From Desulfovibrio sp. TomC (GTDB lineage Bacteria; Desulfobacterota; Desulfovibrionia; Desulfovibrionales; Desulfovibrionaceae): a stretch of DNA of 64,000 nucleotides. Where the stretch lies: assembly GCF_000801335.2 (NCBI RefSeq), contig NZ_JSEH01000003.1, forward strand, positions 62,001 through 126,000, given 5' to 3'. Made by a program: the position numbers and the translations under genes. The notes below the pieces were generated by a model. The model searched no databases. It was not told the DNA's origin and was given only the letters and a program-made list of their open reading frames with translations. How positions within the stretch are numbered: the stretch's first letter is position 1; each line of letters opens with the position of its first letter. Positions 24,903-47,284 of this stretch are shown in pieces.

Positions 24903-26129
24903 CTACGGGGCGGCCGCCTGGGTACGGGATTGGGACAGCCGGCGGCTGGTTTCAAGGTCCAGTTCCCGGCGCAGTTCGTCGGGCATGGGCCGGCTGTCGG
25001 CGGCGGCTCTGGCCGCACGGGTGGCCCTGGGGCCGAGCAGCCCGCCGGCGTTGTAGTTGATATTGGCCCAGTTGTTCTGGGCCACGAGGGCCGTTATGGA
25101 CCCGTCGCCGTTAATGTCGGCCGCGACATTGGCCTCTATGGAGCCGTTATGGTTCCAGTCGATGGGAGCGGCGGCATCGCCGGCCAGCGCCCCTTGCGCC
25201 CCGCTGTTGTAATAGTAGTACGTGCCGTAGCCGGCCACGCTGTCCGCCCCGGTCAGGCCGAGATTCTCATTGAGGGCGGCCTCGTTGAGGGTCGGCGTGG
25301 TCAGACGCTGGTAGTCGAACTGCAGCGGATAGCCCCCATCCCCCCAGTGGCCGTCCTGGTACAGGCCGATGGTCTGGAAAGAATAATTCATTACGCTTAA
25401 ATAGTTCGGCTTGTAGTTTTCGTGGTCCGAGCCGCCGTGGGTGAGTCCCAGGCAATGGCCCAGCTCGTGGACGAAGGTGCCGAGCTTTTCCCAGTCTGTT
25501 CCGCCGGTCGGACCCCACAGGCCCAGGCTGACCAGGAAGTCCGTGGCCGGGATATCGCGGGCCAGGCCGCTGGAGGAATCCTCGTTGTAGGAGTTGGCCC
25601 AAATCATGTATCGAAAAGATTTGGCATAGGCCGGGTCAAACGAGAGGTTCTTGCGGGTTTCGAAATCCACCCAGACCTGGGTGTAATTATTCTGCACGCC
25701 AAGGGTCTCGGCGTACAGGACGCTGTTTTTGAGGATGGGATGGATGCGGATGCCGGTTGTGCCGTCGGGGTTGGTCACGGGCGCATGGGCAAACACGGCC
25801 TTTATGTTGTCGATGACAGTCTGGGACGGCCCGAGGCTCCCCTTGGTCGGATGGATCATGTAGTCCATCCAGACAAACAGGTCCTTGTGCAGGGGGTCGG
25901 CCCCCATGCCCGGCAGATCCACGAACGTGTTGCCGACGAAGTAGCCGTTTCGTTCCCAGACGTCGGGCAGCCCGTCGCCGTCGGTGTCGCGCGACAGGGG
26001 GGCGGTGATGGCCGGGAGGAAAAGCGGCAGGTTGAATTCGTCGGCGTGGCTGACGTCTGGCCAGGCCGTCAGTCCGGGCAGCAGTGCCAGCATGCAACAG
26101 ATCATGACATTTTTGATATGGGCTGCCAT
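24903..26129 (-). CDS. Secreted zinc metalloprotease-like protein (HExxHxxGxxH zincin)
   Basis: 408 residues with a signal peptide (cleavage near SHADEF). The zinc signature HELGHCLGLTHGG lies near 224-236 and a downstream YLSVMNYSF supplies the Met-turn, the metzincin layout. Near the mature N-terminus DTDGDGLPDVWE is a calcium-binding TSP3-like loop, and near the C-terminus DWNHNGSIEANVAADINGDG looks like a second Ca2+ loop pair (dockerin/EF-hand-like). It would act outside the cytoplasm as a calcium-stabilised peptidase. No propeptide cysteine switch was noticed. A good promoter lies upstream at 26204-26233. The gene stands alone and is more AT-rich upstream than its neighbours. Confidence 0.85.
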   Translation of the reverse strand: MAAHIKNVMICCMLALLPGLTAWPDVSHADEFNLPLFLPAITAPLSRDTDGDGLPDVWERNGYFVGNTFVDLPGMGADPLHKDLFVWMDYMIHPTKGSLGPSQTVIDNIKAVFAHAPVTNPDGTTGIRIHPILKNSVLYAETLGVQNNYTQVWVDFETRKNLSFDPAYAKSFRYMIWANSYNEDSSSGLARDIPATDFLVSLGLWGPTGGTDWEKLGTFVHELGHCLGLTHGGSDHENYKPNYLSVMNYSFQTIGLYQDGHWGDGGYPLQFDYQRLTTPTLNEAALNENLGLTGADSVAGYGTYYYYNSGAQGALAGDAAAPIDWNHNGSIEANVAADINGDGSITALVAQNNWANINYNAGGLLGPRATRAARAAADSRPMPDELRRELDLETSRRLSQSRTQAAAP

Positions 26130-31329: not shown

Positions 31330-33549
31330 ATGATTCAAGGAAGGGTTGCGTACGGCCTGGGCCGCGTTGGATTGGCAACACTGTTTTTTATCCTGACTGC
31401 AGGTTTGACGGTACTTCAGGGCGTTCCGGCCCAGGCGGCCACCTGGTATGTGAAGGCGGGGTCCTCTGGCAACGGCACGACCTGGGGCACGGCCTTCGGC
31501 TCCATCCAGGAGGGCCTCAATGTTGCCGGCAGCGGCGACGTGGTCGAGGTGGCCGGGGGCCTCTACTCCGAGGCCATCCACTCGGTGAGCGCCGGGGTCA
31601 CCGTGGTCGGCAGCACGGCGTCGGGGTACAACTCCCAGGTGGTCGTCAAGGCCGGCGATGGGCAAGAGGTCCTCACCGTTTCCCATCAGACCGTCTGGAA
31701 GGGTCTGACCTTTGATGGTTCGGCCAACAACAATACCAGCAACACCGATCTTGCCGTGGTCCATATCACGGCCGGGTCTCCCGCCTTCGAGGCCTGCGCC
31801 ATTGGTCCGGGCCCACGGCTGCTCATCATCGGCGCCGGCGGGGCCACCTTCTCGCGCTGCACCATCCAGGAGGCCCGGCTTGGCAACCGGGTCTACAGCA
31901 AGGTGGTGGAGGTCCTCTCCGGCAGCTCTCCGGTCGTCTTCAACTATTGTCTGTTCGGCGATATGGAATATGGCTCCATCTATGTAAACAGCGCCTCGCA
32001 AGTGGATTTCAACAACTGCCTGCTGGCTGGTTTTGCCGGCGACATCCTCTATGTCCCGTCGGGCGTTGTTGTTGCCGGCGGCATCCATTTGACCAACTGT
32101 CTGGCCCTGGGCAACGGCTTTGCCGCGACTGCCCTCATTGAGAATGCGTCTACCAGCGCGCCGGTGACCCTGACCAACTGTCTTTTCCAGGACAAAAGCC
32201 CGGTGGAAATGACCGGGCTGCGCTATAGCGGCGACGTCACGGAAGTGTCCCCGCTCACTCCCGGTTCTCCGCAGTTGACCCACGGGCGGCGGGCGGCCCT
32301 GCTCAACCTCGGCATCGACGACGCCGCCAACGCCTCGTACGCGACCCAGGTGGCCGCCTTGACGAGCAGCCATGGCATGCAGCTGACCCTGGCCCTGGAC
32401 GCCTCCGACGCCGTAGACGCGAACTGGGCCGATGCCCAGGCCCTGATCAATGCCGGCAACGAGGTGGCCGCCCACAGCGCCCACCATGTCTATCTGCCGG
32501 AAACAAAGCTCATGACCCTGGCCTATGCCGGCGGAGGGACCGGGGCCAAGGTCACGGTGGCCAGCACGGGCACGGCGGCCACGACCCTGACGGTGACGGC
32601 CGCCGGCGACGCAAACGCCAATTTCAGCCTGAATCTGGCCGACAGCGCCACCGACACCATCGGCAAGGTGTGCACTGCCATCAACGCCAAGTCGGGCTTT
32701 ACCTGCGGGCTGATCACCATCGCTGGGACCACCTACACGAGCGCTTCGGTGCTCTCGCGGGATTTAAACGGCGTGTCCGGCGTGTCCATCCAAAACGTCA
32801 CGGCGACCTTGCTGCGAAACGACGCCCAGTTTTTTGCCGACGAGATCACAGCCCCCAAGACCCTGATCGAATCCAGGCTGACGGCCCCGGGCAGTTCCGT
32901 GGCCTATTCCTGCGGCAGTTTCGTCTATCCGTTCCTGGGCGCGGACCCCGCCGTGATCGCGGCCACAGCCGCTGCCGGCTACACTGCGGCCCGCAGCGGC
33001 TACGACGGGTCGTACGCCATGGGCGGCCTGTACGCTGGGACCACCCCGGGCAGCTATGACACGCTCAATATCTGGGCCACGCAGCCCGGCCTCATCTTTG
33101 GTCGGCATCTCGACGCGGCCACCCTGGGCCGGCGGGTGTCGGCCTTCCTGGAATGGGCCAAGTTTACCGGCGCGGCCGTGTCGCTTTTCAGCCACGGCGC
33201 GAACGAATACGACCTGACCGAATGGTCGGCCCTGCTGGCGCTGATCGCGGCCGACGGCCAGATCCAGACCGCTGCCCTGGCCGGGATACGCCAGTACGTG
33301 GCCCAAAACGCCCAGTCTTCGTCTGGCTCGACCTTCGTGCGCACGGTCTGGCCGCCGGTGGCCGACTACCGGCCTCTCTACGGGTCGCCGCTTCTGCGGG
33401 CCGGAACGGCCTACGCCACAGCCAAGACGGACTTTGGCGGGGCGGTGGTTTCGGCCGGAACCACCCCCACGGTTGGGTTGTACCAGGCAAATTCCTTCAA
33501 TCCGGCAGGAGCATCGCCGGCAGCCAATCTGCTCCTGCTCCTGCAATGA
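31330..33549 (+). CDS. Secreted beta-helix protein fused to a NodB-like polysaccharide deacetylase domain
   Basis: 739 residues. Signal peptide with cleavage near AQA/AT (36-38). Residues about 40-300 look like a right-handed parallel beta-helix (repeated FxxCxI/NNCLLAG turns) of the kind that binds or cleaves polysaccharide. From about 320 a NodB-type domain begins: LNLGIDDAANAS carries the metal-binding Asp pair and VAAHSAHH the His pair, with FVYPFLGADP and LFSHGANEYDLTEW later. An insertion of roughly 120 residues splits the domain. The same insertion and the same downstream motifs recur in the deacetylase at 43722-44873, so the two are paralogues. It precedes the exopolysaccharide operon and probably acts on that polymer outside the cell. 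The ATG lacks a ribosome site. Confidence 0.75.
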   Translation: MIQGRVAYGLGRVGLATLFFILTAGLTVLQGVPAQAATWYVKAGSSGNGTTWGTAFGSIQEGLNVAGSGDVVEVAGGLYSEAIHSVSAGVTVVGSTASGYNSQVVVKAGDGQEVLTVSHQTVWKGLTFDGSANNNTSNTDLAVVHITAGSPAFEACAIGPGPRLLIIGAGGATFSRCTIQEARLGNRVYSKVVEVLSGSSPVVFNYCLFGDMEYGSIYVNSASQVDFNNCLLAGFAGDILYVPSGVVVAGGIHLTNCLALGNGFAATALIENASTSAPVTLTNCLFQDKSPVEMTGLRYSGDVTEVSPLTPGSPQLTHGRRAALLNLGIDDAANASYATQVAALTSSHGMQLTLALDASDAVDANWADAQALINAGNEVAAHSAHHVYLPETKLMTLAYAGGGTGAKVTVASTGTAATTLTVTAAGDANANFSLNLADSATDTIGKVCTAINAKSGFTCGLITIAGTTYTSASVLSRDLNGVSGVSIQNVTATLLRNDAQFFADEITAPKTLIESRLTAPGSSVAYSCGSFVYPFLGADPAVIAATAAAGYTAARSGYDGSYAMGGLYAGTTPGSYDTLNIWATQPGLIFGRHLDAATLGRRVSAFLEWAKFTGAAVSLFSHGANEYDLTEWSALLALIAADGQIQTAALAGIRQYVAQNAQSSSGSTFVRTVWPPVADYRPLYGSPLLRAGTAYATAKTDFGGAVVSAGTTPTVGLYQANSFNPAGASPAANLLLLLQ

Positions 33550-33858
33550 TCTCCCCCGGCAATGACCTTCCCCAGCGGGAGCCTGCGGCAGGAATCCCTG
33601 CCCTGACGGTTTGTTGCCAGTGCGGCCTTTGGCCGCAGGCGGGCGGCGCAAGGCGAGGCCGCCGGGTCGGATGCGGTCTGGCCCTGAAAATATGTTTTTT
33701 GGGGAATACGTTTTGTTGAAATAAGCTGCATGGCTTCACAGAGGAAGCGGGGAGTTGCTTGGGTTATGGTTTCATTTTTGCACGATGGCCGGCAGCCTAT
33801 TTTTTATTTGACAACGCATGATCCAGGCCCCGTTGCCGATCCCCCCTAACCGCGATGT

Positions 33859-33879
33859 ATTGTTACAATATTATACAAT
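33859..33879. promoter_or_regulatory. AT-rich inverted repeat upstream of the PilZ synthase gene
   Basis: ATTGT (33859-33863) and ACAAT (33875-33879) flank an AT-rich centre with TATTAT/TATACA, about 180 bases before the synthase start. It is the only strongly AT-rich part of the 33550-34059 gap, which otherwise holds no gene I can support. It could be a regulator site or the operon promoter; no good -35/-10 pair was fixed. Confidence 0.3.
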
Positions 33880-34059
33880 GTTGGAGAAAACCGTGGGCCG
33901 AGAAACCGGACGAGCCGGGTGGAAGAATCCTCTGGATGCGTCAATCGGGCGGTTGCACAGTTTGAATAATTGAAACACGAAGTTGAGGAAAAAGGTTGGC
34001 GGAAGCTGTTTTCCCCCCAGCCCAAGTCCATGACACCGATAGCTGCGGAGGTTGAGACG

Positions 34060-35730
34060 ATGACGGAAGTATTCCCCCAAACAAGACCTGATCGCCGCTT
34101 CCTCCCGGACATACCGTCCAAAAGCGAGGGCCGCAGGACCGCCGGAGAACGCTATTTTTCCCAGGGCCAGGCCGATGTCTACAGTGCCGACGGCAAGTAT
34201 CGCTACGCCTCGGGCGAGACAGTCGACATCTCCGAAGGGGGAATGCTCATTAAGCCGGACAAGCCGCTGCGGGTGGGGGACAAGACCGTGGTGCGGTTTT
34301 TCCTAAGCGCCGGGACCATGCCCGAGGGGTACGAATCGTTTGTCAAGCTGCCGGCCCGGGTGGTGCGGGTGGACTCGTCCACCGGGTATGCGGCCTTTGA
34401 ATTTGCCAAGCCGATGTCCCAGTATCTGCGCCGCAAACGCTGGCGGTATTTCGAGACGGCCTCCCTGCTTGGCATCCTCCTCACCCTGATTGGGGTGTGG
34501 TTTATCAAAAAAGAGAGCATTTTTTATTTCTGGTTCGACGTGCCGGTTTTTCTCTACGGGCTGTGCGCCGTTTTCTACCTGCTCTCGCGCTTTTTCTTTG
34601 CCGCCCTCTACAAGCCCTATCCTGTGGTTCCCGGCTTTCAGCCCAGTGTGAGCATCGTCATTCCCTGCTTTAACGAAGAGGAATGGATCGAAAAGACCAT
34701 TCGCGGCTGCCTGAACCAGCACTACCCCGAGGAACTCCTCGAAGTCATCCTGGTGGATGACGGCAGCACGGACAACTCCGTGGCCGTGGCCCGGGCCGTG
34801 GAGGCCAAGATCCGGGACGAGGCGGGCGGCCGGCTGACCATCCACGCCTTCGAGCAGAACCAGGGCAAGCGCCAGGCCCTGGCCGCCGGGGCGCGCATGG
34901 CCAAGAACGATCTCGTGGTCTTTGTCGACTCCGACAGTTTTCTGCAGCCCGACGCGATCTTGCACATGGTCCAGCCGTTTCACAATCCCCACATCGGGGG
35001 CGCGGCCGGACGCTGCGAAGTGGAAAACAAGTGGACCAACATGCTGACCCGCATGCAGGCCGTGCGCTACTTCATCGGCTTTCGCATCTTCAAGGCGGCC
35101 GAGAGCATTTTCGACGTGGTCACCTGCCTGTCCGGCCCGCTGGCCTGCTACCGCCGCGAGGTGCTCATGCGCTACCTCGACGACTGGGTGAACCAGAAGT
35201 TCCTGGGCCAGCCGGCCACCTTCGGCGACGACAGAAGCCTCACCAACTTCGTCCTTGGCAGTCACTATGCCGTTTATCAGCACACCGCCGTCTCCAGCAC
35301 CATTGTGCCTTCCACCTACGGCAAGTTTTTTAACCAGCAGATGCGCTGGAAACGGTCATGGCTGCGCGAGAGCCTTCGGGCCTGCAAGTTCATGTGGCTC
35401 AAAGAGCCGTTCATGGCCATCTCGTTTTATCTGGGCCTCATTTTGCCGGTCATGGCCCCGGTGGTGGTGCTTCGGGCCTTTGTCTTCATGCCGGTCGCCT
35501 ACGGGATATGGCCCACCATGTATCTGGCCGGGGTGCTGCTCATGAGTATGCTCATGTGCACCTCCTACCTGCTCTTGAAGCGTTCCAATCTGTGGCTGTA
35601 CGGTGTGCCCTTCTGCTTCTTCTACTTGTTCGTGCTCCTGTGGCAGATCGTGTGGGCCGTGCTGACCTTCTGGAAGTCCGACTGGGGAACCCGGCCGTCG
35701 AAGCACGACAAGGGCCAGGCCATGGGCTGA
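34060..35730 (+). CDS. PilZ-glycosyltransferase 2 (c-di-GMP-controlled polysaccharide synthase)
   Basis: 556 residues from the ATG at 34060, chosen for GCGGAGG nine bases upstream (earlier in-frame TTG and ATG lack one). Residues 24-120 form a PilZ domain with DISEGG at 56-61; its arginine motif (RRTAGER, 25-31) is one residue longer than the usual RxxxR, so c-di-GMP binding needs testing. Two helices follow (about 131-180), then a processive GT2 domain: DDGST 233-237, DSD 290-292, GDD 389-391 and QQMRW 426-430, the BcsA/hyaluronan-synthase set. More helices complete the translocation pore. It would polymerise a sugar nucleotide and push the chain through the inner membrane. BcsA carries PilZ at the C-terminus, so the N-terminal placement here is different. 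Confidence 0.9.
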   Translation: MTEVFPQTRPDRRFLPDIPSKSEGRRTAGERYFSQGQADVYSADGKYRYASGETVDISEGGMLIKPDKPLRVGDKTVVRFFLSAGTMPEGYESFVKLPARVVRVDSSTGYAAFEFAKPMSQYLRRKRWRYFETASLLGILLTLIGVWFIKKESIFYFWFDVPVFLYGLCAVFYLLSRFFFAALYKPYPVVPGFQPSVSIVIPCFNEEEWIEKTIRGCLNQHYPEELLEVILVDDGSTDNSVAVARAVEAKIRDEAGGRLTIHAFEQNQGKRQALAAGARMAKNDLVVFVDSDSFLQPDAILHMVQPFHNPHIGGAAGRCEVENKWTNMLTRMQAVRYFIGFRIFKAAESIFDVVTCLSGPLACYRREVLMRYLDDWVNQKFLGQPATFGDDRSLTNFVLGSHYAVYQHTAVSSTIVPSTYGKFFNQQMRWKRSWLRESLRACKFMWLKEPFMAISFYLGLILPVMAPVVVLRAFVFMPVAYGIWPTMYLAGVLLMSMLMCTSYLLLKRSNLWLYGVPFCFFYLFVLLWQIVWAVLTFWKSDWGTRPSKHDKGQAMG

Positions 35731-35776
35731 TTGCGCCCGCCAATCGTTATCAACCCACAGAAACGGGACGTACGCC

Positions 35777-37753
35777 ATGAGAAAATTTTTTCGCTACCTC
35801 TTCCAATACGCCATTTTGGTCGCGTTTGGGTATTTCGTCTACCAGACGGCCTTTAAAAAAGACACGCCGCCGGTGCACGACCGGGCCGCCTGGACCCAGC
35901 GCGATGGGTTTGTGGCCTTAGGCTACGGCGGCATCACCATTGACGAGAATGTCCACTCGCTGGTCTCCAAAAGCCGCCTGCGGGAGCATCTGACGGCCCT
36001 GGCCAAAGCCGGCTATAAGACCATAACCACAAGCGATCTTGTTGATTTTTATGAGAAAAACAAGCCGTTGCCGGAGAAGGCCCTCTACCTGATGTTCGAG
36101 GGCGGGCGCAAGGACAGCGTGCTTTTTAGCCAGCCGGTCCTGACCGGCGTCGGCTTCAACGCCGCGCTGTATCTGTACGGCGACCGGCTGACCGGCTGGC
36201 AGCGGTTTTTCGTGCGCCGCTCGGAACTGCGCAAAATTGCCGACAACCCCTTCTGGGACGTCGGCTCCATGGGCTACCACTCCGAACTGATCAACCAGAC
36301 CCCGTCCGGCGGCTACGCCTACTACCTGACGGAGCGGCTGGCCGGCGCTGCCGGGGCGTCCGAAGAAACACAGGAAGCCTACGACGCCCGGGTTGCCGCA
36401 GACTTCACTCTGGCCCGGCAGTCCATCGAGGACCTCGCCGGCAAGGCCCCGCTTGGCTATCTTTTCATGCCGGCCAATACCCTCGGCGTCAGTCTGCCTG
36501 CGGCCGAGGCCCGGCCCAACGAAGCGGCCCTGGCCAAGAACTTCCCGGTGGCCTTTACCCGGGTGGGCGAGACCTACAACCCCCGGGACGCCAACCCGAG
36601 GGGCCTTACCCGGATGCAGGTCGCTCCGGACTGGACGGCCGACCGCCTGCTCCTGGAAATCGAATCCCGCCAGCCCAAATCCCGCTATATGGATTTCTCC
36701 CAGTCCGTGCGCCAGGGACTGTGGCAGGTGACCCTGGGCGATATGGCCGTCATGGGCCAGAGCCTGACCATGACCGCCCCGGTCGGCAAGGACGGCTTTG
36801 CCCGCCTGCGCGGCAGCGAAGGGTTTGAGAACTTCCTGTGCGAGGTCAAGACCACGCCGCCGGACGGCGGGGCCAGCACCATCTACCTGCGCTACCGCGA
36901 CGCCGGCTCCTTCGTGCGTATCCGCACCACGGCCGAGCGGGTCATGGTCCAGGAGAAAAACGGCCCCTCGCTCAACACCATCTTCCAATACGTCCTGCCC
37001 CTTGACCACACCGGCCCGGTCGCCTTTGACCTGTGCGTCAAGGGCAACCGGCTGCTGCTCGGCGTGGACGGCAAGAACGTCAGCCGCTATCCCATCCCGC
37101 TGACGGCCGACACCATCCGCGGCAGCTTCGCCCTGGGCGCGGCCGACGAGGACGATCCCACGCCCGAACCGGCCACGTTTACCGACCTGACCTTGTCCAC
37201 CTTCCCGCCGCGTTGGATCAGCGCCCCGACCATCGGCGACGTGCCTCTGGGCGATGCCCGCACGCTGACGGCCGTGGTCCTGCCGGCCGACACCCTGCAA
37301 GCCGACCCCCTGCGCGATGCCGCCGCCCTCATCACAGCCTCCGTCAATGGCGTCGGCGTCCATCTCGACCTGACCGGACAGGGACCGGAAGCCGTCTTGC
37401 AGACCGTCCATTTCGTGGAGACCGCCCCGGCCTCCATGGTTTTTGCCAAGCTCCTGCGCGGCTTTGTCCTGCCCCTGGGAGGACCCGGCGACCTGGGCCA
37501 GCTCAAGGTCGCCATCGACACCCTGCACGCCAAGGGTTTTTCCGTGGCCCTGCGGGTGGATGCGGCCTGGCAGGCCCGGCTCCTCGACCTGGACCGCGCT
37601 CTGTCCCCGGACTGGCTGCTCTTTGACACGCCGCCGCCGGCCGACGACTCGGCCCTGACTGCCCTGGAAAATCGTTTTGACCGGACCCGCATGTTGTTCC
37701 GGGCCGCCTCCCAGGCCGGCTCCCAAACCGTTTCCTACGATGTGAAGAGGTAG
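35777..37753 (+). CDS. Membrane-anchored degenerate NodB/PgaB-like protein
   Basis: 658 residues with one N-terminal helix (about 7-24) and a large periplasmic part. Residues about 45-290 follow the PgaB/NodB pattern: LGYGGITIDENVHSLVS, REHLTALAKAGYKTITTSDLVDF, then LYLMFEGG where active enzymes have FDDG. The metal-binding Asp pair is replaced by Glu-Gly, and the His motif is reduced to GYHSEL, so deacetylation is doubtful. The middle (about 300-470) resembles a concanavalin-like sugar-binding fold, and the C-terminal 180 residues look like a TIM-barrel-like module, as in PgaB. It probably guides or binds the polymer in the periplasm. It lies 46 bases after the synthase and 4 bases before the export gene. 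Confidence 0.7.
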   Translation: MRKFFRYLFQYAILVAFGYFVYQTAFKKDTPPVHDRAAWTQRDGFVALGYGGITIDENVHSLVSKSRLREHLTALAKAGYKTITTSDLVDFYEKNKPLPEKALYLMFEGGRKDSVLFSQPVLTGVGFNAALYLYGDRLTGWQRFFVRRSELRKIADNPFWDVGSMGYHSELINQTPSGGYAYYLTERLAGAAGASEETQEAYDARVAADFTLARQSIEDLAGKAPLGYLFMPANTLGVSLPAAEARPNEAALAKNFPVAFTRVGETYNPRDANPRGLTRMQVAPDWTADRLLLEIESRQPKSRYMDFSQSVRQGLWQVTLGDMAVMGQSLTMTAPVGKDGFARLRGSEGFENFLCEVKTTPPDGGASTIYLRYRDAGSFVRIRTTAERVMVQEKNGPSLNTIFQYVLPLDHTGPVAFDLCVKGNRLLLGVDGKNVSRYPIPLTADTIRGSFALGAADEDDPTPEPATFTDLTLSTFPPRWISAPTIGDVPLGDARTLTAVVLPADTLQADPLRDAAALITASVNGVGVHLDLTGQGPEAVLQTVHFVETAPASMVFAKLLRGFVLPLGGPGDLGQLKVAIDTLHAKGFSVALRVDAAWQARLLDLDRALSPDWLLFDTPPPADDSALTALENRFDRTRMLFRAASQAGSQTVSYDVKR

Positions 37754-37757
37754 CGCC

Positions 37758-40700
37758 ATGGTACTCAAAGGCATTCTTCTGACTCTGGCGCTGACCTTGG
37801 CTGCGCCGGCAACCGGCTTCGCCGCCGAGGCCTCGGTGGTGACGCTTTTGCGCCAGTCCCAACAGGCCGCCGCCCGGGGACAGCTCGAGCAGGCCATGGA
37901 ACTGGTCTCCCAGGCTCTGGCCCAGGACCCGGCCTATCCGCCGCTGTGGAACCAGAAGGCCACGCTGCAACTGCGGGCCAAGGATTACGCCGGGGCCATG
38001 GAAACCCTGGCCGTGGCCCTTAAAGTCGAACCCGAAAATGCCGAAACCAACATCCTGGCCCTGGCCGCCCTGCTGCGCCTGGATGAGAAGGCCGGCGGCA
38101 AGGACCCGGCCTTTAGCCGCTACGTCTCGGGCATAAGCGAGGACACTGCCGCCGCCCTGACCCTGGATCTCCTGGGCAAACCGGCCTCGAAGTCCGATCT
38201 CAAACGCTTCCTGTCCGCCTGGACCCCGGCCTCGGCCGAAGGCCGGACCACGGCCCGGCTGGCTGCCGGCTATGCCGCCGGCGATCCCGCCGTCATGACG
38301 GAACTGGCCACGGCCCAGGCGGCTGCGGCCCGCAAGAACGTGCTGGCCGCCCTGCAATTCTACGCCGGCCAGGACATGCTGGCGGAAAAACGCCTGGAAC
38401 TGGCCCAACAACTCCTCACGGCCTCGGGCCAGAACGGCTACGACAAGGTGGCCGTTGGCGGCGAGCTGGGCTGGGTGCTCTACAACCAGGGCAAGTTCGC
38501 GTCGGCCGCCGATTTGTGGGAAAAAGACTGGAGAAACGCCCCGGACGTCGGCCGCTGGGCCGGCTGGATCGCCGATGCCCGGCTGGCGGCCAAAGACTAT
38601 AAGCAGGCCGCCGACTTCCTGGAAAAGAGCCTTCAGTTCGATCCCAAAAACCCGGTGCTCCAGGGCCAGTACATTCTGGCGCTGACGGCTTCGGGCCAGG
38701 GCCAGGCAGCCGCCAAATTCGAGAGCAGTCTGGCCGACGAGGCCGACCAGGACGGCGTCAATTTCGGCAGGGGCCTTGTGGCCTGGCATAACGGGGCCTA
38801 CGCCGATGCCGCGGCTGCCCTGACCCGCATCAAAAACCGCAGGCCCTTCCGCGACCAGTTGATCGAGTTGGCCAACGTCATGGTGGCCCGCCTGGGCCAG
38901 TCCGCCGACTCGGCCAAGGTCATCGCCGACGTGCGCGCGCTGGTGGCCGGTATGGACGTCAAACCGGCCATCATGCGCGACATCGGCTGGCGCATGTGGG
39001 CGGCCCATCGCTACGACACCGCCCTTGTCTTTTGGAAGGAAGCCTTAAGCGACGGCCTTGGCAACGACGATCCCCTGGTTGCCCGGGTGGTGCCGCTGTT
39101 GATCGAACAGGGCAAGACCGGCGAAGCCCTGGCCCTGCTCAAGGCCCAGGCCCCGGAAGTCACGCCCCTTGGCCTGGCCTGGAGTCTGGCCGCCCAGAAT
39201 CGCTGGGATCTGGTTGGCAAGGTGGTGGCCGGTGCGCCGGCCGGACCCTATGTCGACCTGCTGGCCGCCATGGCCGGCCTGCAAAACGGGCAGGCTCCCC
39301 TGGCGCTGGACAAGTTGCGAAGCCTCGCCGCCCTGGGCGCAACCGGCCTTGGCCAGATGGGCGTGACCGGGTTTAATGCCGACGGCCGGCTGGTCAAAGG
39401 GGCGCTCACCCCGGCCCTGGCCCGCGAACTCTATCTGCGCATTGCCCGCACCTTGGCCGATCAGCAGATCGTGGACGGCTTTTTCTTCCTGACCCCGCCG
39501 GCCTGGGCTGCGGGCATCCCGGCCAAATCCCTGGCCGCAGTCCAGGCCGAAGCCGGCAAGGTGCTGTGGCGGGTGGGGCGCTTAAGCGAAGCCGCCACCT
39601 TCCTCACCGCCGCCATTGCCGCCGATCCGGCCCAGAATCAGGCCCGGCTCTATCTGGCCCTGGTCAAGAAACGCCAAGGCAATACGGCCGAGGCCGAGGC
39701 CCTTTTGGCCCAGGCCATCCAGGGCGCTTCGCCCTTTGACCGGGATTATGCCCTGGGCGAGTTTGCCTTCCTCGACGGCGACATGACCAAGGCCCTGACC
39801 CATTTCCAGCGTTGTCTGGCTCTGGCCCCGGGCGACGAACTCATGCGGATGCGCGTCATCACGCTGCTTGCGGCCGAAAACCGTTTCGCCGAAGCCCGGC
39901 AGTATGCCTCGTGGTACGAGGCCCGGGTGGCCAAGCAGGAGCGGGCCGTTTTTGGCACCGCCGCGGTGGTGCGCCTGGAACTGGGCGATCCGGCCGGGGC
40001 CGAGACGCTTTATCGCAAGCTTCTGGCTGAAAATCCCGGCTCCCTGGACTACCTCTCCGGCCTTGGCCGGGCGCTTATTCGCCAAAACAAGTTTGCCGCA
40101 ACCGTGGACGCCCTGTCCGCCGCCTATGCCGCCTCGGCCGATCCGGCCCTGGGTTCGGTGTTGTGCGAGGCGCTCATGGGCCTTGGCAACTACTCCGAAG
40201 TGGTGCGCCGGGCCGAAATCGGACTGGTCCGCCATCCTGCGGACAAGGAACTCCTGCGGTTTGCCGCCGAAGCGTCGGAGTTCACCAAGGAGCTGGCCGC
40301 CTGCGAAGGCTATGTGCGCCGGTCCCTGGCCCTTGATCCGGATTCGCTCACCATGCAGAACATGCTTGGCCGGGTGCTCCTGGATCAGGAGAAGTTCCCG
40401 GAGGCCAAGGAGCAGTTCGAAGCGCTTTTGGCCAAAAACCCCCGCCACCTTTCGTCGCTTCGCGGGTTGCTAAGCGTCTACCAGCTGACGGGCAAGGCCG
40501 AGGACGCCTACAAGGTGGCCAAGACCCTGCGCGAGGTCGCCCCGGACGACGCCGCAGCCAGCCTCAAGTTTGCCATTGCCGCTGCGGCCGACCACTCCTT
40601 CCGTCCGGCCTATCCGACCCTGGAAAAGCTGCGCGACTTCGGCCCTGGGGCCGGGGTGCTGAGCCTGTATTACGCCGATGTGCGCGACACCGAGGCGGCC

Positions 40701-42623
40701 GGCAAGGTCCGCCTGTCCCAGCTCGCCGACCATATCCAGGCCGTGGCCGCCCGAAACGGCCGGTTCTTGAGCATCGACGATCTGGCCGCCCGGCCGGTGG
40801 GCGAGGCCGCCCTCAAGCAGAAAGCCACGGACACGGCCCCCTCGGTCATTTTGTTGATCGACCGCACCGACGCCGCCGTGCTCGATAAAATCGACGCAAA
40901 GCTCGCTGCTGTCGGCGGCAAGGCCGTGCTCATCGTTGGCGGCGAATCCCTGACTCCCGGGACCCCGTATCTGCCCGACGCCGGGCAGGTGGCCCGCCTC
41001 GTCGGCACCGGCCGCTGGTCCCTGGCGCTCACCGACCACAATCCGCCAAACGTCCCGGTTGGCGACGGCCAGAAGACCAGCCTGTGGTACGCCGCCGGAG
41101 CCGATCCCGGCGTTGCCGGCGGGGGAGACGCCCAGGCCCGGCTAGCGGCCCGGCTCAAGGCCCTTGATCCCACCGGTGAAATCCTCGGCAAGACCCGGCC
41201 GGTCTTCTTCTACCCCGGCGGGGCCTCCCCCAACGAACTGCTGACCGCTGACGTCGCCCCCTACGACAAGGTGGTGGCCGACGCCTTCCCCATGGCTTTC
41301 GAGCTGTCGCCCGAAGGCTTCTGGACCCCGGTGTCGAGTCCCAAGCAGGTCGCCTCCAAGGCCGTGTCCCCGGCCATGGACGCAGCCGGCCTGGAGACCT
41401 GGCTCAATCAGGCCGACCCCATGCATCAGGTGTCCCTGGAACTGGCCAAGGTCTATTCCTGGCACGAGCAGGTCGGACAGGCCGGGAACTACTTCGAGGA
41501 AGCCGGCGAACTCAAAGTCAATCCGGCTGATCTGACCTATAATCAGGCGGTCAACGCCTACTACGGCTACGACGATCCCGTGGCCATGGACCTGGCCCGC
41601 AAGGCCGTGGCCCTGGCCCCGGATTCGCTGCGCGCCGCCGACCAGCTCTACCGGGCCGAACTGCGGGTGCGTCCCAAGGCCGAAGCCATCGCCACCACCT
41701 GGTGGGACAGCGACAACCGGCGCTACTACTGGTATGGCCTGGGCGGCAACGTCCATATCCGCGAAGACTTCACCGTCTTTGCCAAGGTCGGCGGGGTGGA
41801 GTGGTCCATCGAGAGCTTCCAACGCCGGGGCCAGATCCTCAAGGCCTTTGCCAACGCGGCCCAGAACGGAACCGTCTCGGCCGGGGACCTCTACAACATC
41901 GCCAACTCGCGCTACAGCCAGACCCTGGACGGCCAGGACCTGACCGTGGGCGGCCGCTGGTTCTTCCATCCCGAATACTGGTTGGAAGTGCAGGGCCAGC
42001 TGACCACCACCACCGGCGGCCCCGGCCCCTGGGCCAACGGGCAGGCCACTTTGCACGGTCCGCTTGCCCCCAAGGGCGTCAAGATCGACGGCACCTGGGA
42101 TCTCCAGGTGGCCCACGAACGCATCGACACCGTGGAAGCCATATCCGACCAGATCATGGCCAACCGGGTGAGCCTTTTTACCCACAACCGCGTCCTGGAT
42201 TTCTGGGACCTGTTCGTCAACGTCCACGGCATCTCGCGCACCGACGGCAACAACACCGCCTCCATCGACGGCCGCCTGCTGCGCCGGTTGACCGAGTTCC
42301 CCCTGTTCTCGCTGGGCTACGCCTTCCAGTTTGCCAACAGCGACCGCAACCCCATCCAGTACTGGGCGCCCCAGAGTCTGGCCACCCATCTGGCCTACGG
42401 ATCGTTTGGCTACTCGCCCACCCGCTGGTTCAACATCAACGGCAGCCTGGGCTACGGCACCTCGAGCGACCGCAACAACAGCTGGCGGGAAGTCTGGCGG
42501 GCCAACGCGGGCATGGACATAACTATGCGCGACAGGTTAAAGCTGTCACTGAAGTACTCCTACTTCAGTACGCCAGACTATAACCTCAATGAAGCATGGG
42601 CCGGAATAACCTACACCTTCTGA
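37758..42623 (+). CDS. Giant TPR / NodB-like / outer-membrane beta-barrel exopolysaccharide exporter
   Basis: 1621 residues. Signal peptide (cleavage near GFAAEA, about 23). Residues about 25-1020 are TPR-type repeats (for example AQDPAYPPLWNQKATLQLRAK). About 1028-1200 is an unexpected NodB-like region (SVILLIDRTD, RWSLALTDHN, RPVFFYPGGASPNELL) without an obvious metal triad. Further TPRs lead to about 1300, then an antiparallel beta-barrel to the C-terminal phenylalanine (AGITYTF), the usual outer-membrane insertion signal. TPR plus barrel is the plan of PgaA, BcsC and the AlgK/AlgE pair: the TPR superhelix collects the polymer and the barrel exports it. The NodB-like insert is not part of those. 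The stop overlaps the next ATG (TGATG). Confidence 0.85.
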   Translation: MVLKGILLTLALTLAAPATGFAAEASVVTLLRQSQQAAARGQLEQAMELVSQALAQDPAYPPLWNQKATLQLRAKDYAGAMETLAVALKVEPENAETNILALAALLRLDEKAGGKDPAFSRYVSGISEDTAAALTLDLLGKPASKSDLKRFLSAWTPASAEGRTTARLAAGYAAGDPAVMTELATAQAAAARKNVLAALQFYAGQDMLAEKRLELAQQLLTASGQNGYDKVAVGGELGWVLYNQGKFASAADLWEKDWRNAPDVGRWAGWIADARLAAKDYKQAADFLEKSLQFDPKNPVLQGQYILALTASGQGQAAAKFESSLADEADQDGVNFGRGLVAWHNGAYADAAAALTRIKNRRPFRDQLIELANVMVARLGQSADSAKVIADVRALVAGMDVKPAIMRDIGWRMWAAHRYDTALVFWKEALSDGLGNDDPLVARVVPLLIEQGKTGEALALLKAQAPEVTPLGLAWSLAAQNRWDLVGKVVAGAPAGPYVDLLAAMAGLQNGQAPLALDKLRSLAALGATGLGQMGVTGFNADGRLVKGALTPALARELYLRIARTLADQQIVDGFFFLTPPAWAAGIPAKSLAAVQAEAGKVLWRVGRLSEAATFLTAAIAADPAQNQARLYLALVKKRQGNTAEAEALLAQAIQGASPFDRDYALGEFAFLDGDMTKALTHFQRCLALAPGDELMRMRVITLLAAENRFAEARQYASWYEARVAKQERAVFGTAAVVRLELGDPAGAETLYRKLLAENPGSLDYLSGLGRALIRQNKFAATVDALSAAYAASADPALGSVLCEALMGLGNYSEVVRRAEIGLVRHPADKELLRFAAEASEFTKELAACEGYVRRSLALDPDSLTMQNMLGRVLLDQEKFPEAKEQFEALLAKNPRHLSSLRGLLSVYQLTGKAEDAYKVAKTLREVAPDDAAASLKFAIAAAADHSFRPAYPTLEKLRDFGPGAGVLSLYYADVRDTEAAGKVRLSQLADHIQAVAARNGRFLSIDDLAARPVGEAALKQKATDTAPSVILLIDRTDAAVLDKIDAKLAAVGGKAVLIVGGESLTPGTPYLPDAGQVARLVGTGRWSLALTDHNPPNVPVGDGQKTSLWYAAGADPGVAGGGDAQARLAARLKALDPTGEILGKTRPVFFYPGGASPNELLTADVAPYDKVVADAFPMAFELSPEGFWTPVSSPKQVASKAVSPAMDAAGLETWLNQADPMHQVSLELAKVYSWHEQVGQAGNYFEEAGELKVNPADLTYNQAVNAYYGYDDPVAMDLARKAVALAPDSLRAADQLYRAELRVRPKAEAIATTWWDSDNRRYYWYGLGGNVHIREDFTVFAKVGGVEWSIESFQRRGQILKAFANAAQNGTVSAGDLYNIANSRYSQTLDGQDLTVGGRWFFHPEYWLEVQGQLTTTTGGPGPWANGQATLHGPLAPKGVKIDGTWDLQVAHERIDTVEAISDQIMANRVSLFTHNRVLDFWDLFVNVHGISRTDGNNTASIDGRLLRRLTEFPLFSLGYAFQFANSDRNPIQYWAPQSLATHLAYGSFGYSPTRWFNINGSLGYGTSSDRNNSWREVWRANAGMDITMRDRLKLSLKYSYFSTPDYNLNEAWAGITYTF

Positions 42624-43705
42624 TGGATAAACGGGCTGCGCGCCAGGGGTTTCCCCTGGCGCTGGCCCTTTTGGCCCTGTGTCTGCTGTGGGCCTGCGTG
42701 CCTCCGGCGAAGCAGGGCTCGGCCCAGACCGCCGCACCCGCCGCCAGCCTGGGACCAAACGACCGCATCACCGCCTGGATCGCCGATTGGGATCTGGCCA
42801 GCGGCTTGGCCGAATGGCGCGCCCATCCGCAACTCTTTGATTCCGTGCGTATTTTTGCCGCCTATTTCGACCAGAGCGACCATGCCGCCCTGTCGCCGGC
42901 CTGGACTGCCGCCCTGGGCAACGACGTCACATCCGTCTTTGGCCCCACGCCCGCCTATCTCACCGTGGTCAACGACATCGCCACCCCGACCGGCAAGGGC
43001 AACAAGCTCAAAGATCCGGAACTGGTGCGCCGCCTCCTGGCCACGCCCCAATCCCGGGCCGCCCACATCGACGAACTGATCCGCCTCGCCAAACGCCACC
43101 ATTTCGCCGGCATTGAAATCGACTACGAAAACGTGGCCGCCCCGACCTGGCCGGATTTTTCCCTCTTCATCGCCGAACTATACGCCGCCGCCTCGCCCCA
43201 GAGGCTGGCCGTGTCGATTGTGCTCCAGCCCCAGCGCCGCTACTTGACAGCTCCCCTGCCCATTGGGCCGGCCTACGTGCTCATGGGCTACAATCTCTTC
43301 GGCTCCCACTCCGGCCCTGGTCCCAAAGCCACCCCGGCCTTTCTGACCGAGCAGGCCAATTCCCTGCGCGCCATCGGGCTGCTCGGCGATACCGCCCTGG
43401 CCCTGGCCACCGGCGGCTTCGACTGGACCGAGGGCAAGGCCGCCAAACAGCTCACCGAAGTCGAGGCCGCCGCCCTGGTGGCCCAAAAAAGCGCCCAGTC
43501 CACGCGCTCCGCCCTCGATGGCTACCTCGTTTCCCGCTACCGCGACGCAGCCGGCAAAGACCATGAGGTCTGGCACGCCGACGCCGCCACCTTTGAGACG
43601 CTCTGGCAGGCCGCCCGGACTGCCGGCTTCACCCGTCTGGCCGTCTGGCGGCTGGGGGGCAATGCCCCGGCCCTGTTTGACTGGCTGGCCACCCACAAAC
43701 ATTGA
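42623..43705 (+). CDS. GH18-like glycoside hydrolase lipoprotein
   Basis: 360 residues starting at 42623, overlapping the previous stop by one base. The N-terminal hydrophobic run ends LLWAC, a near-lipobox with Cys25, so the protein is probably lipid-anchored. The GH18 signature appears as FAGIEIDYE (161-169), with Glu169 as catalytic acid and Asp167 preceding it, although the first Asp of DxxDxDxE is not conserved. SVRIFAAYF (strand 2), YVLMGYNLF and LALATGGFDW are further TIM-barrel strands. Family members cleave GlcNAc-containing polymers. In this operon it may trim or edit the polymer, which hints at an amino-sugar backbone. Confidence 0.82.
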   Translation: MDKRAARQGFPLALALLALCLLWACVPPAKQGSAQTAAPAASLGPNDRITAWIADWDLASGLAEWRAHPQLFDSVRIFAAYFDQSDHAALSPAWTAALGNDVTSVFGPTPAYLTVVNDIATPTGKGNKLKDPELVRRLLATPQSRAAHIDELIRLAKRHHFAGIEIDYENVAAPTWPDFSLFIAELYAAASPQRLAVSIVLQPQRRYLTAPLPIGPAYVLMGYNLFGSHSGPGPKATPAFLTEQANSLRAIGLLGDTALALATGGFDWTEGKAAKQLTEVEAAALVAQKSAQSTRSALDGYLVSRYRDAAGKDHEVWHADAATFETLWQAARTAGFTRLAVWRLGGNAPALFDWLATHKH

Positions 43706-43721
43706 CCCCGGAGGCCTGTTC

Positions 43722-44873
43722 GTGTCCCGACGTTATCCCGCCGTTGCCGGCGGTATCCTCATCGTCTGCCTGCTCCTCGCCGCCACCGCCCGTTTCGCCC
43801 CGGCCCAGGGTCTCTCCCCGGCCACGCGCGGCGTTCCGCTGCCCGGATCAGGCCCCCGCGCCTACGTCAATATCATCATCGACGACCTGGTGAATTTTGA
43901 TCTCTGGGCGCAACTCGCCACCGACTGCGACGCCTTCGGCATGAAAGCCACCCTGGCCCTCAATACCGCCAAGACCACCCCTGACGATTACGCCCGCATG
44001 GCCGCATTCGTCGCCAAAGGCCACGAAATAGCCAACCATACCCGCGACCACGTGGCCGTGGCCCCGGGCAGCGTCATCAAACTGCGCTACTTCAGCACCG
44101 CCGCCAAATCCGCCTATGCCGCCGTGGACGAGCAAAACGCCACTCTGCGCATCATCGTCGACGACAATTCCAAACCCCTGGCCGAATTCGACCTGTCCGA
44201 AAACGGCCGCTACGCCAGCCTCAAACTCCTCGTTGAAGCCTTAAACAACGTGCGCGGCATCGTGGCCGAACTCGGCGATCCCTACTGCGCCAATATCCAC
44301 TCCCGGTTCCTCCAGGAACGCAACAAGACCGATATCTTTTACAAAAACGGCTTCGCGCCGTTGTTCGTCAACGTCCCGGCCAACGCCCGTTACGAAATGG
44401 AAACCGCCCAGGCCGACATCGCTGCCGGTATCCCCAACTATGCCGCCAAATCCATGGTCTACCCGTTCCTCGTCACCGACGCCGATTCCCGCCAAGTCGC
44501 CCGTGACCTCGGCTTCACCTGCGGCCGCGTCGGCACCGCCGGCAACGCCGCCCTCGGCTCCCCCGGCGGCTACAATCTCTATCAGATCTACGCCGTCAAA
44601 CCCCGCGACGCCTTCGGCATCGATCCCTCAACCCCGGAATTCGCCGCCAAAGTCACCGCCTTCCTCAACAAACTCAAAGAAGTCGGAGGCGTCTGCTGCC
44701 TCTATTCCCACGGCCCCGACGAATTCACCAACGAACAATGGAAAGCACTGCTGCCGCTGCTCGCCAAGGACAAAGACATCGCCTACGTGACGCTCGGCAG
44801 CCTCGGCGAATTCGTGCGCAAGACGGCGCAACTGCGCGACGGGAAGTACTACCTGCCCCAGGCAGGGAAGTAG
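43722..44873 (+). CDS. Polysaccharide deacetylase (NodB-type), secreted
   Basis: 383 residues from a GTG at 43722 with CCGGAGG upstream. Signal peptide (cleavage near APAQG, 29-30). The NodB domain looks active: IIIDDL (Asp54-Asp55) and HEIANHTRDH (101-110; His106, His110) give the metal triad, followed by MVYPFLVTDAD and LYSHGPDEFTNEQW. An insertion of about 120 residues sits between motif 2 and motif 3, as in the beta-helix protein at 31330, showing common descent. It would remove N- or O-acetyl groups from the exported polymer. It is the last gene of the operon; the hairpin repeat copy 2 follows. Confidence 0.88.
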   Translation: MSRRYPAVAGGILIVCLLLAATARFAPAQGLSPATRGVPLPGSGPRAYVNIIIDDLVNFDLWAQLATDCDAFGMKATLALNTAKTTPDDYARMAAFVAKGHEIANHTRDHVAVAPGSVIKLRYFSTAAKSAYAAVDEQNATLRIIVDDNSKPLAEFDLSENGRYASLKLLVEALNNVRGIVAELGDPYCANIHSRFLQERNKTDIFYKNGFAPLFVNVPANARYEMETAQADIAAGIPNYAAKSMVYPFLVTDADSRQVARDLGFTCGRVGTAGNAALGSPGGYNLYQIYAVKPRDAFGIDPSTPEFAAKVTAFLNKLKEVGGVCCLYSHGPDEFTNEQWKALLPLLAKDKDIAYVTLGSLGEFVRKTAQLRDGKYYLPQAGK

Positions 44874-45018: not shown

Positions 45019-46347
45019 TTACTCCCCTGGCCCTATGGCCAGAATGCGGCGCAGGGTGTCTTTGGTGACGTCGAGTTCGCGGCAGGCGGCCATGGTTTTG
45101 CCGTCGTGCCGGGCCAGGGCGGCTTTGGCGGCCTGGTATTTGGCGGCGCGCATGGTGGTTGGCATGGCTGGCGGGGTTTCGGGACTGCGGGATTTGGGCA
45201 GCAGGTAATCGGGCAGGTGTTCGGGGGTGATGCGGCCGGCCGGGCAGAGGATGAAGGCGTATTCCAGGATGTTTTGCAGTTCGCGGACGTTGCCGGGGAA
45301 GCTGTGGCGCACGAGCAGCCGCATGGCGTTGTCGGACAGGCCGGTGACGGCTTTTTGGGTCAGCAGGTTTTGGCGTTCGATGAAGGTGGCGGTCAGGAGC
45401 GGGATGTCTTCGGGCCGTTCGCGCAGGGGGGGCAGGGCGATGCGGGCGACGCTCAGGCGATAGAACAGGTCGCGGCGAAACGCGCCGGTTTCGGCCATGG
45501 TTTCGAGATCGCGGTTGGTGGCGGCGACAATGCGGGCGTTGGTGGTGCTGGAGGCGTCGGAGCCGAGCGGTTCGAAGGTGTGTTCCTGGAGGACGCGCAG
45601 GAGTTTGACTTGCAGCGCCAGGGGCAGTTCGCCGACTTCATCAAGGAAGAGCGTGCCGTTTTGAGCCAGGGCGAAGCGCCCTTTGCGATCGGTTTTCGCG
45701 TCGGTAAACGCGCCGCGCTTGTGGCCGAAAAGTTCCGATTCCAGGAGTTCGCCGGGGATGGCCCCGCAATTGACGGCGATAAACGGGCCTTGGGCGGCCG
45801 GGCTTAAGGTGTGGATGGCCCGGGCGAAGAGTTCCTTGCCGGTGCCGGATTCGCCAAGGAGCAGCACGGTGGAGCCGGATTCGGCGATGCGCGGCAACAG
45901 TTCCAGGGAGCGGGCCAGGGTTTTGTTTTTGGTGACGATGTCTTCGAGGGTGCACACGCCTTCGAGTTCTTTGCGCAGCCGGCTGATGTCCGAGATGTCG
46001 CGGAAGGTTTCGACGCCGCCGACGATGCGGCCGGAACCGTCGCGCAGCGGGGCGGCGCTGATGCTGACGGGAACCTTGGTTCCGTCGGGCCGCACGATGA
46101 AGATGGACTGGTTTTGGAGCGTGGTGTCCTTGGCGATGCAGTGGCCGAGCGCGCAGCCTCCGTCACACAGGCTTGAGTGGAAGACCTCCCAGCATTTGCG
46201 GCCCAGGGCCTTGTCCGGGGCGAGGCCGGCGATGGCGCCGGCGGCGCGATTGAAAAAGGTGATGGTGAAATCGGTGTCGACAGTGAATACGCCGTCGGCC
46301 AGGGATTCCATGATGGATTCGCAGGGGATATCGCGGGGGAGGGCCAT
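45019..46347 (-). CDS. PAS domain sigma-54-dependent transcriptional activator
   Basis: 442 residues from the ATG at 46347; the open extension to 46521 is non-coding in appearance. The N-terminal PAS domain (about 8-125) carries Cys52, Cys61, Cys65 and Cys70 ([15 protein letters not shown]), a possible redox or metal site. The AAA+ domain has Walker A GESGTGKE (164-171), Walker [10 protein letters not shown] (231-239) and the R-finger region. The sigma-54 contact loop reads GAFTDA (211-216) instead of GAFTGA. The C-terminus is a Fis-type HTH ([18 protein letters not shown]). It should activate sigma-54 promoters; the one at 31036 is the only consensus site I found in the window. There is no receiver domain, so control is by the PAS domain. 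Confidence 0.93.
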
Positions 46348-46427
46348 AGTCGAAGTACCGCCTTTGGGCCGGGGTGGGATGTTCTTGTAACCGAGGCCGT
46401 CGTCGGTGTCCAAGGCGCGGGAACCAA

Positions 46428-46456
46428 TTGACTTTTCACCGGGCGGGTTTGATAGA
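46428..46456 (+). promoter_or_regulatory. Candidate promoter of the glycosyltransferase-like gene
   Basis: TTGACT (46428-46433), 17-base spacer, GATAGA (46451-46456), then GGGGAGGG and the ATG at 46502. The -35 is near consensus and the -10 is poor. Confidence 0.4.
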
Positions 46457-46501
46457 GGGGGAATCGGGCAGCCCGGGAGGGGTTGCCAGGGGAGGGTGCG
46501 C

Positions 46502-47284
46502 ATGGCTGAGAATACGCCCATGCTGATGATTGGAACACCGGCCTACAGCGGGCAGGTGACGGTGCATTATATGCGGGCGCTGGTCTCGTGCGTCGGGTTT
46601 CTGGAGCGCCAGGGCATCAAGACCGGGATGCTGACCCCTGCCCAGGAGAGTCTTATTCCCAGAGCGCGCAATCTGATTGCCAACGAGTTCTTGCGCCTCA
46701 AAGAATACACGCATCTGCTTTTTATTGACGCCGACATCGGATTTACGCCGGAATTGCCGCTCAAATACCTGGAGGCCGACAAGGATGTGGTCTGCGGCAT
46801 CTATCCGGTCAAGTATCTCGACATCGACAAGTTGCGCATGGTGGATCGCAAGGCTTTGTCCCGGGTGGCGGCGGCGGCGGCCATGCACTACGCGGTCAAG
46901 CTCAAGCCCGGGGGCCGGCCCGAGCCGGTGACCGGCCTGTTGCCGGTGGAATACGGGGCCACGGGCTTTATGATGATCAAGCGCGAGGTATTGGTGCGCA
47001 TGGCCGAGGCCTATCCGGAACTGGCCTATGACTATTCCCACACCAACGACGACAACATCAACAACGTGGCCTTTTTCGATACCGGCATCGACACCGAGCG
47101 GCGCGAGTATCTGCCTGAGGATTATGCCTTTTGCAAACGCTGGACCGACATTGGCGGCGAGATCTTTGCAGACGTGCACAGTGTGTTCACCCACGTCGGT
47201 TCCTTTGAGTACACGGGCAATTTTACGGCCTTTCTGACCCATCTGGGCGGCGGGGCGCAGGATGACGGGAAGACGGACGGTTGA
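46502..47284 (+). CDS. Glycosyltransferase-like protein (GT-A fold)
   Basis: 260 residues from the ATG at 46502 (CAGGGGAGGG upstream). [14 protein letters not shown] and [11 protein letters not shown] near 75 look like the nucleotide-sugar domain of GT-A enzymes, with DAD as the DxD metal site. [13 protein letters not shown] and [16 protein letters not shown] are typical of this poorly described group, often seen in phage or surface glycosylation contexts. [12 protein letters not shown] carries acidic and Tyr residues seen near the catalytic base region in such enzymes. No membrane span. The acceptor is unknown. It is encoded divergently from the sigma-54 activator and 107 bases before the DsrE-like gene. 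Confidence 0.7.

Follow-up and report, generated by a model that had tools for sequence, protein, structure and literature searches.

Organization of the Locus

The DNA analysed here, hereafter the window, is a stretch of 64,000 nucleotides from Desulfovibrio sp. TomC (contig NZ_JSEH01000003.1, positions 62,001 to 126,000 of the forward strand), which carries between positions 31330 and 44873 a block of six genes predicted to serve the synthesis, modification and export of a polysaccharide. The five downstream genes form a compact core, and we consider it fairly probable that they encode synthase-dependent machinery which secretes a polymer of beta-linked N-acetylhexosamine units, belonging to the chitin/hyaluronan class. 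A first-pass annotation, made from the letters alone, had described the six genes as a single set, and open reading frame (ORF) analysis together with Pfam recovered all of them with their domains and with gaps of 46, 4, -1 and 16 bases within the core:

31330..33549, plus strand: optional upstream gene, beta-helix and NodB-type deacetylase (Pfam below cut-off; Asp-Asp and HSAHH motifs)
34060..35730, plus strand: PilZ-GT2 synthase of the hyaluronan synthase/NodC type (Pfam, NCBIfam, PDB, motifs); ORF open from 33970
35777..37753, plus strand: membrane-anchored pseudo-deacetylase, PgaB-type NodB fold with the active site lost; CBM66-like domain at ~36695-37210
37758..42623, plus strand: tetratricopeptide repeat (TPR) exporter of 1,621 residues; NodB-like insert at ~40650-41417 and likely C-terminal beta-barrel at ~41688-42620
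42623..43705, plus strand: GH18-like hydrolase bearing a signal sequence; could also start at 42596
43722..44873, plus strand: NodB-type deacetylase with catalytic residues kept; inferred GTG start

The idea of one six-gene set had to be abandoned. The first gene ends 510 bases upstream of the synthase gene, and across the 13 congener loci it was found full-length upstream in only six, partial in one, unmatched in five and out of reach at a contig edge in the remaining one, which rules it out as an obligate part of the operon.

A Synthase of the NodC/Hyaluronan Synthase Type

Judged by its sequence, the synthase is of the NodC/hyaluronan synthase type and not PgaC-like, so that its initial placement closest to Pga does not hold. 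Pfam detects a PilZ domain (36.4 bits, cut-off 22.5) and a GT2 domain (114.5 bits, cut-off 23.3), and among the NCBIfam models NodC scores highest (192.7 bits, cut-off 550), ahead of PgaC (124.7 bits, cut-off 422.3) and of the cellulose synthase CelA (34.1 bits, cut-off 699.1), the latter confined to residues 154-281. In this line, BLASTP aligned 370 columns with a NodC (181 bits) and only 250 with the PgaC of E. coli (100 bits), and the best PDB matches were hyaluronan synthases (131-144 bits). The motifs GDDR, QQMRW and WGTR occur in all 16 module synthases compared, which thus carry the set of class I hyaluronan synthases (GDDR, QxxRW and a WGTR-type gating loop), while three NodC proteins show GEDR, QQLRW and WLSR, and PgaC shows TEDI and QRLRW without WGTR. 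Passages in the literature give GDDR, QxxRW and WGTR(G) or WGTSG as the hyaluronan synthase motifs (PMC11750622), and assign WGTR/K to hyaluronan and chitin synthases and FxVTxK to cellulose synthase (PMC10592267). Over the 111 residues of the acceptor region, the synthase shares 49 identities with frog HAS1 and 41 with NodC. A tree of 21 synthases, with stems of 8.35 and 6.8 changes per column for NodC and PgaC, did not separate the branching of the 16 module synthases from that of NodC, and so does not settle how the two are related. The PilZ motif [DN]xSxxG is likewise present in 16 of 16 module synthases.

The Pseudo-Deacetylase and the Exporter

The second protein was originally taken for a working periplasmic deacetylase, a role ruled out by the loss of the NodB-type active-site residues in all 13 members compared. 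Because of this loss we read it as a non-working deacetylase. Its profile scores are low both for Pfam NodB (14.1 bits, cut-off 23.1) and for NCBIfam PgaB (38.9 bits, cut-off 923), and a match to PgaB was also returned by fold search. The protein carries a lectin-like, CBM66-like domain, and its last 180 residues were barely covered by the fold searches.

The exporter had been annotated as a TPR protein with a NodB-like insertion and a beta-barrel, of which the TPR part is firm (109 bits, cut-off 25). The insert, with a tblastn E-value of 2e-5 in a congener and an hhalign probability of 78.5, has moderate support in sequence comparison, and the NodB-like stretch lacks the active-site histidines. 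A C-terminal barrel is likely from the sequence pattern, as strand-like periodicity was found in 0.328 of the ten-residue windows in the last 311 residues, close to the 0.337 of the PgaA barrel, compared with 0.172 and 0.165 in TPR parts and 0.199 in shuffles (z 2.5); moreover, the C-terminal Phe is invariant (12/12). What did not stand was a structural model of this region (see below). Comparisons with PgaA itself were restricted to the repeats: hhalign aligned the TPR alone (probability 9), and the NCBIfam model reached 27.7 bits against a cut-off of 366.65 in the TPR part only. A PDB profile search with exporter residues 937-1621 returned TPR structures and weak chance rows only.

The Modifying Enzymes

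Enzymes of the GH18 and NodB families act on N-acetylhexosamine polymers, and the usual GH18 signature is DxxDxDxE. In the fourth protein the first Asp of this signature is missing and Glu stands in place of the second, and Asp167, Tyr168 and Glu169 are invariant in 9 of 9 homologues, so that the hydrolase proposed at first pass holds as to its catalytic Asp167 and Glu169, if not as to its Pfam score (see below). The last NodB protein exceeds the Pfam cut-off (30.5 versus 23.1 bits) and shows Asp-Asp and HTRDH in the 14 genomes of the genus; in three loci outside the genus its counterparts also have Asp-Asp together with two His (L070, L073 and L074), and an alignment shows Asp-Asp and HGAVH in the fifth-gene products of L073 and L074. 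As far as sequence tells, both enzymes thus keep their catalytic residues, and for this reason they fit an N-acetylhexosamine substrate. The product of the optional upstream gene stays just under the Pfam cut-offs for NodB (22.6 versus 23.1 bits) and beta-helix (25.8 versus 25.9 bits), with Asp-Asp and HSAHH present.

The same genome encodes on another contig a single chain of 1,140 residues with GH18, NodB and GT2 matches in Pfam (L089:5173-8592, contig C4), and in 5 of the 14 genomes of the genus a frame longer than 1,100 residues likewise gives a second match to GH18.

Conservation and Distribution

The five genes follow one another in unchanged order, all on one strand, in the loci of all 13 other Solidesulfovibrio genomes, and a set kept in this way is not a chance assembly. 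When the second protein was searched against 59 genomes, it gave E-values of 1e-256 or better in its own genome and in the 13 congeners, and weak matches (1e-8 to 5e-4) in eight others; Solidesulfovibrio and Desulfovibrio sp. matches showed 61-90% identity (L054-L060). A class-level draw of 297 genomes yielded 17 matches at an E-value of 1e-15, 12 of them in the same genus (own genome included), four in a second genus and one in a third, all of the same family, and a phylum-level draw of 297 genomes yielded three matches at 1e-20, own genome counted. The gene order is also kept in two other genera of the family. Beyond the genus, the complete order of synthase, pseudo-NodB, exporter, GH18 and NodB was found in L070 and L073, and again in L074 with the synthase cut at the contig edge; other contigs end after the GH18 gene (L072), within the exporter (L061, on the same contig as L071) or within the second gene (L062).

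Relatives were also found in Gram-positive bacteria. The second protein matched seven Lachnospiraceae loci (L063-L069), and a PilZ-GT2 synthase (44-55% identity) immediately precedes the second gene in each of the nine loci L061-L069. A GH18 homologue comes next in L063, L065, L066 and L067, and in the other five the contig ends before a further whole gene. The gene preceding the synthase encodes two to four NodB stretches in 7 of 7 Lachnospiraceae loci, the count of two coming from a protein cut at the contig edge. Two further Lachnospiraceae clusters (L087 and L088) join synthase, pseudo-NodB, GH18, a multi-NodB protein and a TviB-like UDP-N-acetylglucosamine (UDP-GlcNAc) dehydrogenase (L087:11193-12509 and L088:2862-4178; 423 and 446 bits, cut-off 592), and the polymer made there may therefore contain uronate; L088 has in addition a DltB-like protein (151 bits versus a cut-off of 375). 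In a sample of the family, 3 of 200 genomes matched, the centre genome counted. Paenibacillus cellulositrophicus, the sole one of 851 matching plasmid records in which a place spans 80% of the query, has consecutive genes for the synthase (46% identical, with 99% of the query aligned), the pseudo-NodB and GH18, with a NodB protein 1.3 kb upstream. BLASTP found no exporter homologue in the Lachnospiraceae loci L063-L069, and no exporter gene is annotated in the Paenibacillus locus (L077); L087 and L088 lay outside this comparison. A monoderm core without exporter homologue is what would be expected if the exporter serves the outer membrane.

Surroundings of the Operon

Rfam gave no match at gathering threshold between 28000 and 48000, so riboswitch control is not supported. 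Promoter-like sites (3 versus 1.5 expected, all on the minus strand) and terminator-like sites (18 versus 10.2 expected, mostly intragenic) were discarded as evidence. A GGDEF (diguanylate cyclase) gene occurs at 15775-16821, ~18 kb upstream of the synthase, and a gene for a PAS and sigma-54 activator lies downstream on the minus strand (45019-46521), convergent with the operon. The protein at 24906-26129 (minus strand) matches, marginally and over 23 residues, the model of a calcium-binding domain that takes its name from binary toxins (25.2 bits against a cut-off of 25); this may be just a calcium-binding repeat.

Proposed Mechanism and Nature of the Polymer

In the machine that we propose, binding of cyclic di-GMP (c-di-GMP) to PilZ would release the WGTR gating loop of the GT2 synthase, a control that the PilZ domain makes probable. 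The synthase would then build the chain from UDP-GlcNAc, possibly together with another UDP-sugar, and push it across the inner membrane, where the membrane-anchored pseudo-deacetylase would take and guide it by means of its dead NodB fold and its lectin-like domain. The TPR/NodB-like/barrel protein would carry the chain across the periplasm and the outer membrane, while the GH18 enzyme would trim or clear it. Finally, the last NodB might strip some of the acetyl groups, making the polymer partly cationic and suited to adhesion or biofilm formation, partial deacetylation being the best reading of the enzymes present.

Several observations weigh against this proposal. The product of the operon is so far a prediction from its genes, and all NCBIfam family models score below their curated cut-offs. 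The NodB part of the second-protein model has a low predicted local distance difference test (pLDDT) score and superposes poorly on PgaB as a whole (TM score 0.25), and the barrel was not modelled, since AlphaFold gave exporter residues 937-1621 a pLDDT of 42. The GH18 protein falls short of its Pfam cut-off (26.7 versus 29.6 bits). As for the control by c-di-GMP, the Arg pair of PilZ is mostly RxxxxR instead of RxxxR, and the PilZ of a Lachnospiraceae synthase (L066) lies below the cut-off at 15.7 bits. Moreover, the dehydrogenase of the two Lachnospiraceae clusters points to uronate.

The identity of the polymer is where the alternatives diverge. A chitin- or chitosan-like product is the leading candidate, if a tentative one, because the combination of NodC, NodB and GH18 favours the chitin type; a polymer of hexosamine and uronate seems doubtful, some other product rather improbable, and a product like poly-N-acetylglucosamine (PNAG) still more so. 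The uronate-bearing polymer draws its strength from the hyaluronan synthase motifs together with the Lachnospiraceae dehydrogenases. In its full form, a hyaluronan-like heteropolymer in which the synthase adds hexosamine and uronic acid in turn, the latter being for example glucuronic acid (GlcA) or N-acetylglucosaminuronic acid, this explanation agrees with the motif set, with the acceptor region (49/111 identities to HAS1 versus 41/111 to NodC) and with the Arg and Lys that the synthase has at the positions of R287 and R296 of HAS1, described as near GlcA in a passage of PMC11750622, where NodC has Glu and Arg. The Solidesulfovibrio block, however, contains no dehydrogenase, the nearest TviB-like gene of its own genome being ~166 kb away on the contig, and NodB and GH18 suit an N-acetylhexosamine homopolymer equally well; we regard the heteropolymer as unlikely for this operon, and tentatively favour the chitosan-like over the hyaluronan-like product.

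The remaining explanations start from the resemblance to other named systems. A divergent Pga system secreting beta-1,6-linked GlcNAc would account for the similar division of labour and for the PgaB fold of the second protein, but its synthase would have to do without the TED motif of PgaC and with WGTR, aligning over 250 PgaC columns only, and its PgaB-type active site is lost with no PgaD-like gene among the five; we find it improbable. Poorer still are the prospects of a short lipo- or chito-oligosaccharide signal in place of a matrix polymer: NodC and NodB do figure among the closest named models, and GH18 could cap the chain length, but the operon holds an exporter of 1,621 residues and the gating loop is WGTR, as in polymerising synthases, instead of the WLSR of NodC.

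Well-studied bacterial synthase systems span few polymers, namely cellulose, PNAG, Pel and alginate. If the chitin/hyaluronan-class reading is true, a hyaluronan-synthase-type enzyme, likely controlled by c-di-GMP and accompanied by dedicated deacetylases and a GH18, would extend this range by a further aminopolysaccharide, in sulfate reducers and in rumen bacteria. The core genes themselves recur in distantly related bacteria of the rumen and of soil. With confidence just short of even, we suggest that these operons form a separate class of c-di-GMP-gated systems secreting a bacterial chitosan or hyaluronan-like aminopolysaccharide, in which a hyaluronan-synthase-type enzyme would work with a dead PgaB-lectin guide that takes the place of PgaD or BcsB; the core would be common to diderm sulfate reducers, which add the TPR/pseudo-NodB/barrel exporter, and to monoderm Lachnospiraceae and Paenibacillus. 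The diderm and monoderm versions would offer a natural pair to separate the roles of exporter and pseudo-deacetylase.

Comparison with Known Systems

No description of this gene set was found in the titles and abstract openings of the open-access literature, among the matches listed, and the main text of a survey of synthase operons makes no mention of Desulfovibrio, Lachnospiraceae, GH18 or chitin (PMC7112194). The bacterial chitin synthases on record in passages of PMC5122149 belong to division 1, are of eukaryotic origin and come from Gammaproteobacteria and an alphaproteobacterium; the same passages report that in viruses and fungi genes for chitin synthase come in pairs with genes for UDP-GlcNAc 6-dehydrogenase.

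The first-pass view of a polysaccharide synthase system outside the standard Pga and Bcs types was upheld, since none of the NCBIfam cut-offs for PgaC, PgaB, PgaA, BcsC and CelA is even approached, which rules out a standard pga or bcs operon. The reported lack of PgaD- and BcsB-like genes is also true among the five genes: no PgaD-like ORF lies between them, no search with a PgaD profile having been made in the flanks, and the BcsB family is absent from the Pfam and NCBIfam matches of the six proteins. GT4 of the PelF type is absent from their Pfam matches, the synthase being a GT2. The features tested thus exclude filing the operon as pga, bcs, pel or nodC.

Like PgaABCD, which makes PNAG in E. 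coli, the operon combines a TPR exporter, a periplasmic protein of NodB fold (the PgaB fold) and a GT2 synthase; it departs from PgaABCD in the type of synthase and its PilZ domain, the dead NodB, the lectin-like insert, the separate GH18 and NodB proteins and the absence of PgaD. The clostridial cellulose system Ccs, as described in part of PMC7710045, likewise has a PilZ-GT2 synthase in a monoderm without TPR exporter, but its synthase is of the BcsA type and is accompanied by a GH5 hydrolase, an O-acetylation pair and a CBM11-like CcsB. The GH18-NodB-GT2 fusion of the same genome brings together the same three activities by Pfam, with a GH18 part that fits the fourth-gene profile (1.6e-25); it differs in being one protein whose glycosyltransferase part lacks GDDR and WGTR. 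Closest to the synthase are class I hyaluronan synthases and NodC, which have in common with it the GT2 core, GDDR or GEDR and QxxRW, WGTR being common to the module and hyaluronan synthases, whereas the module synthase is distinguished from both by its N-terminal PilZ domain and by belonging to an operon that also encodes periplasmic and exporting proteins.

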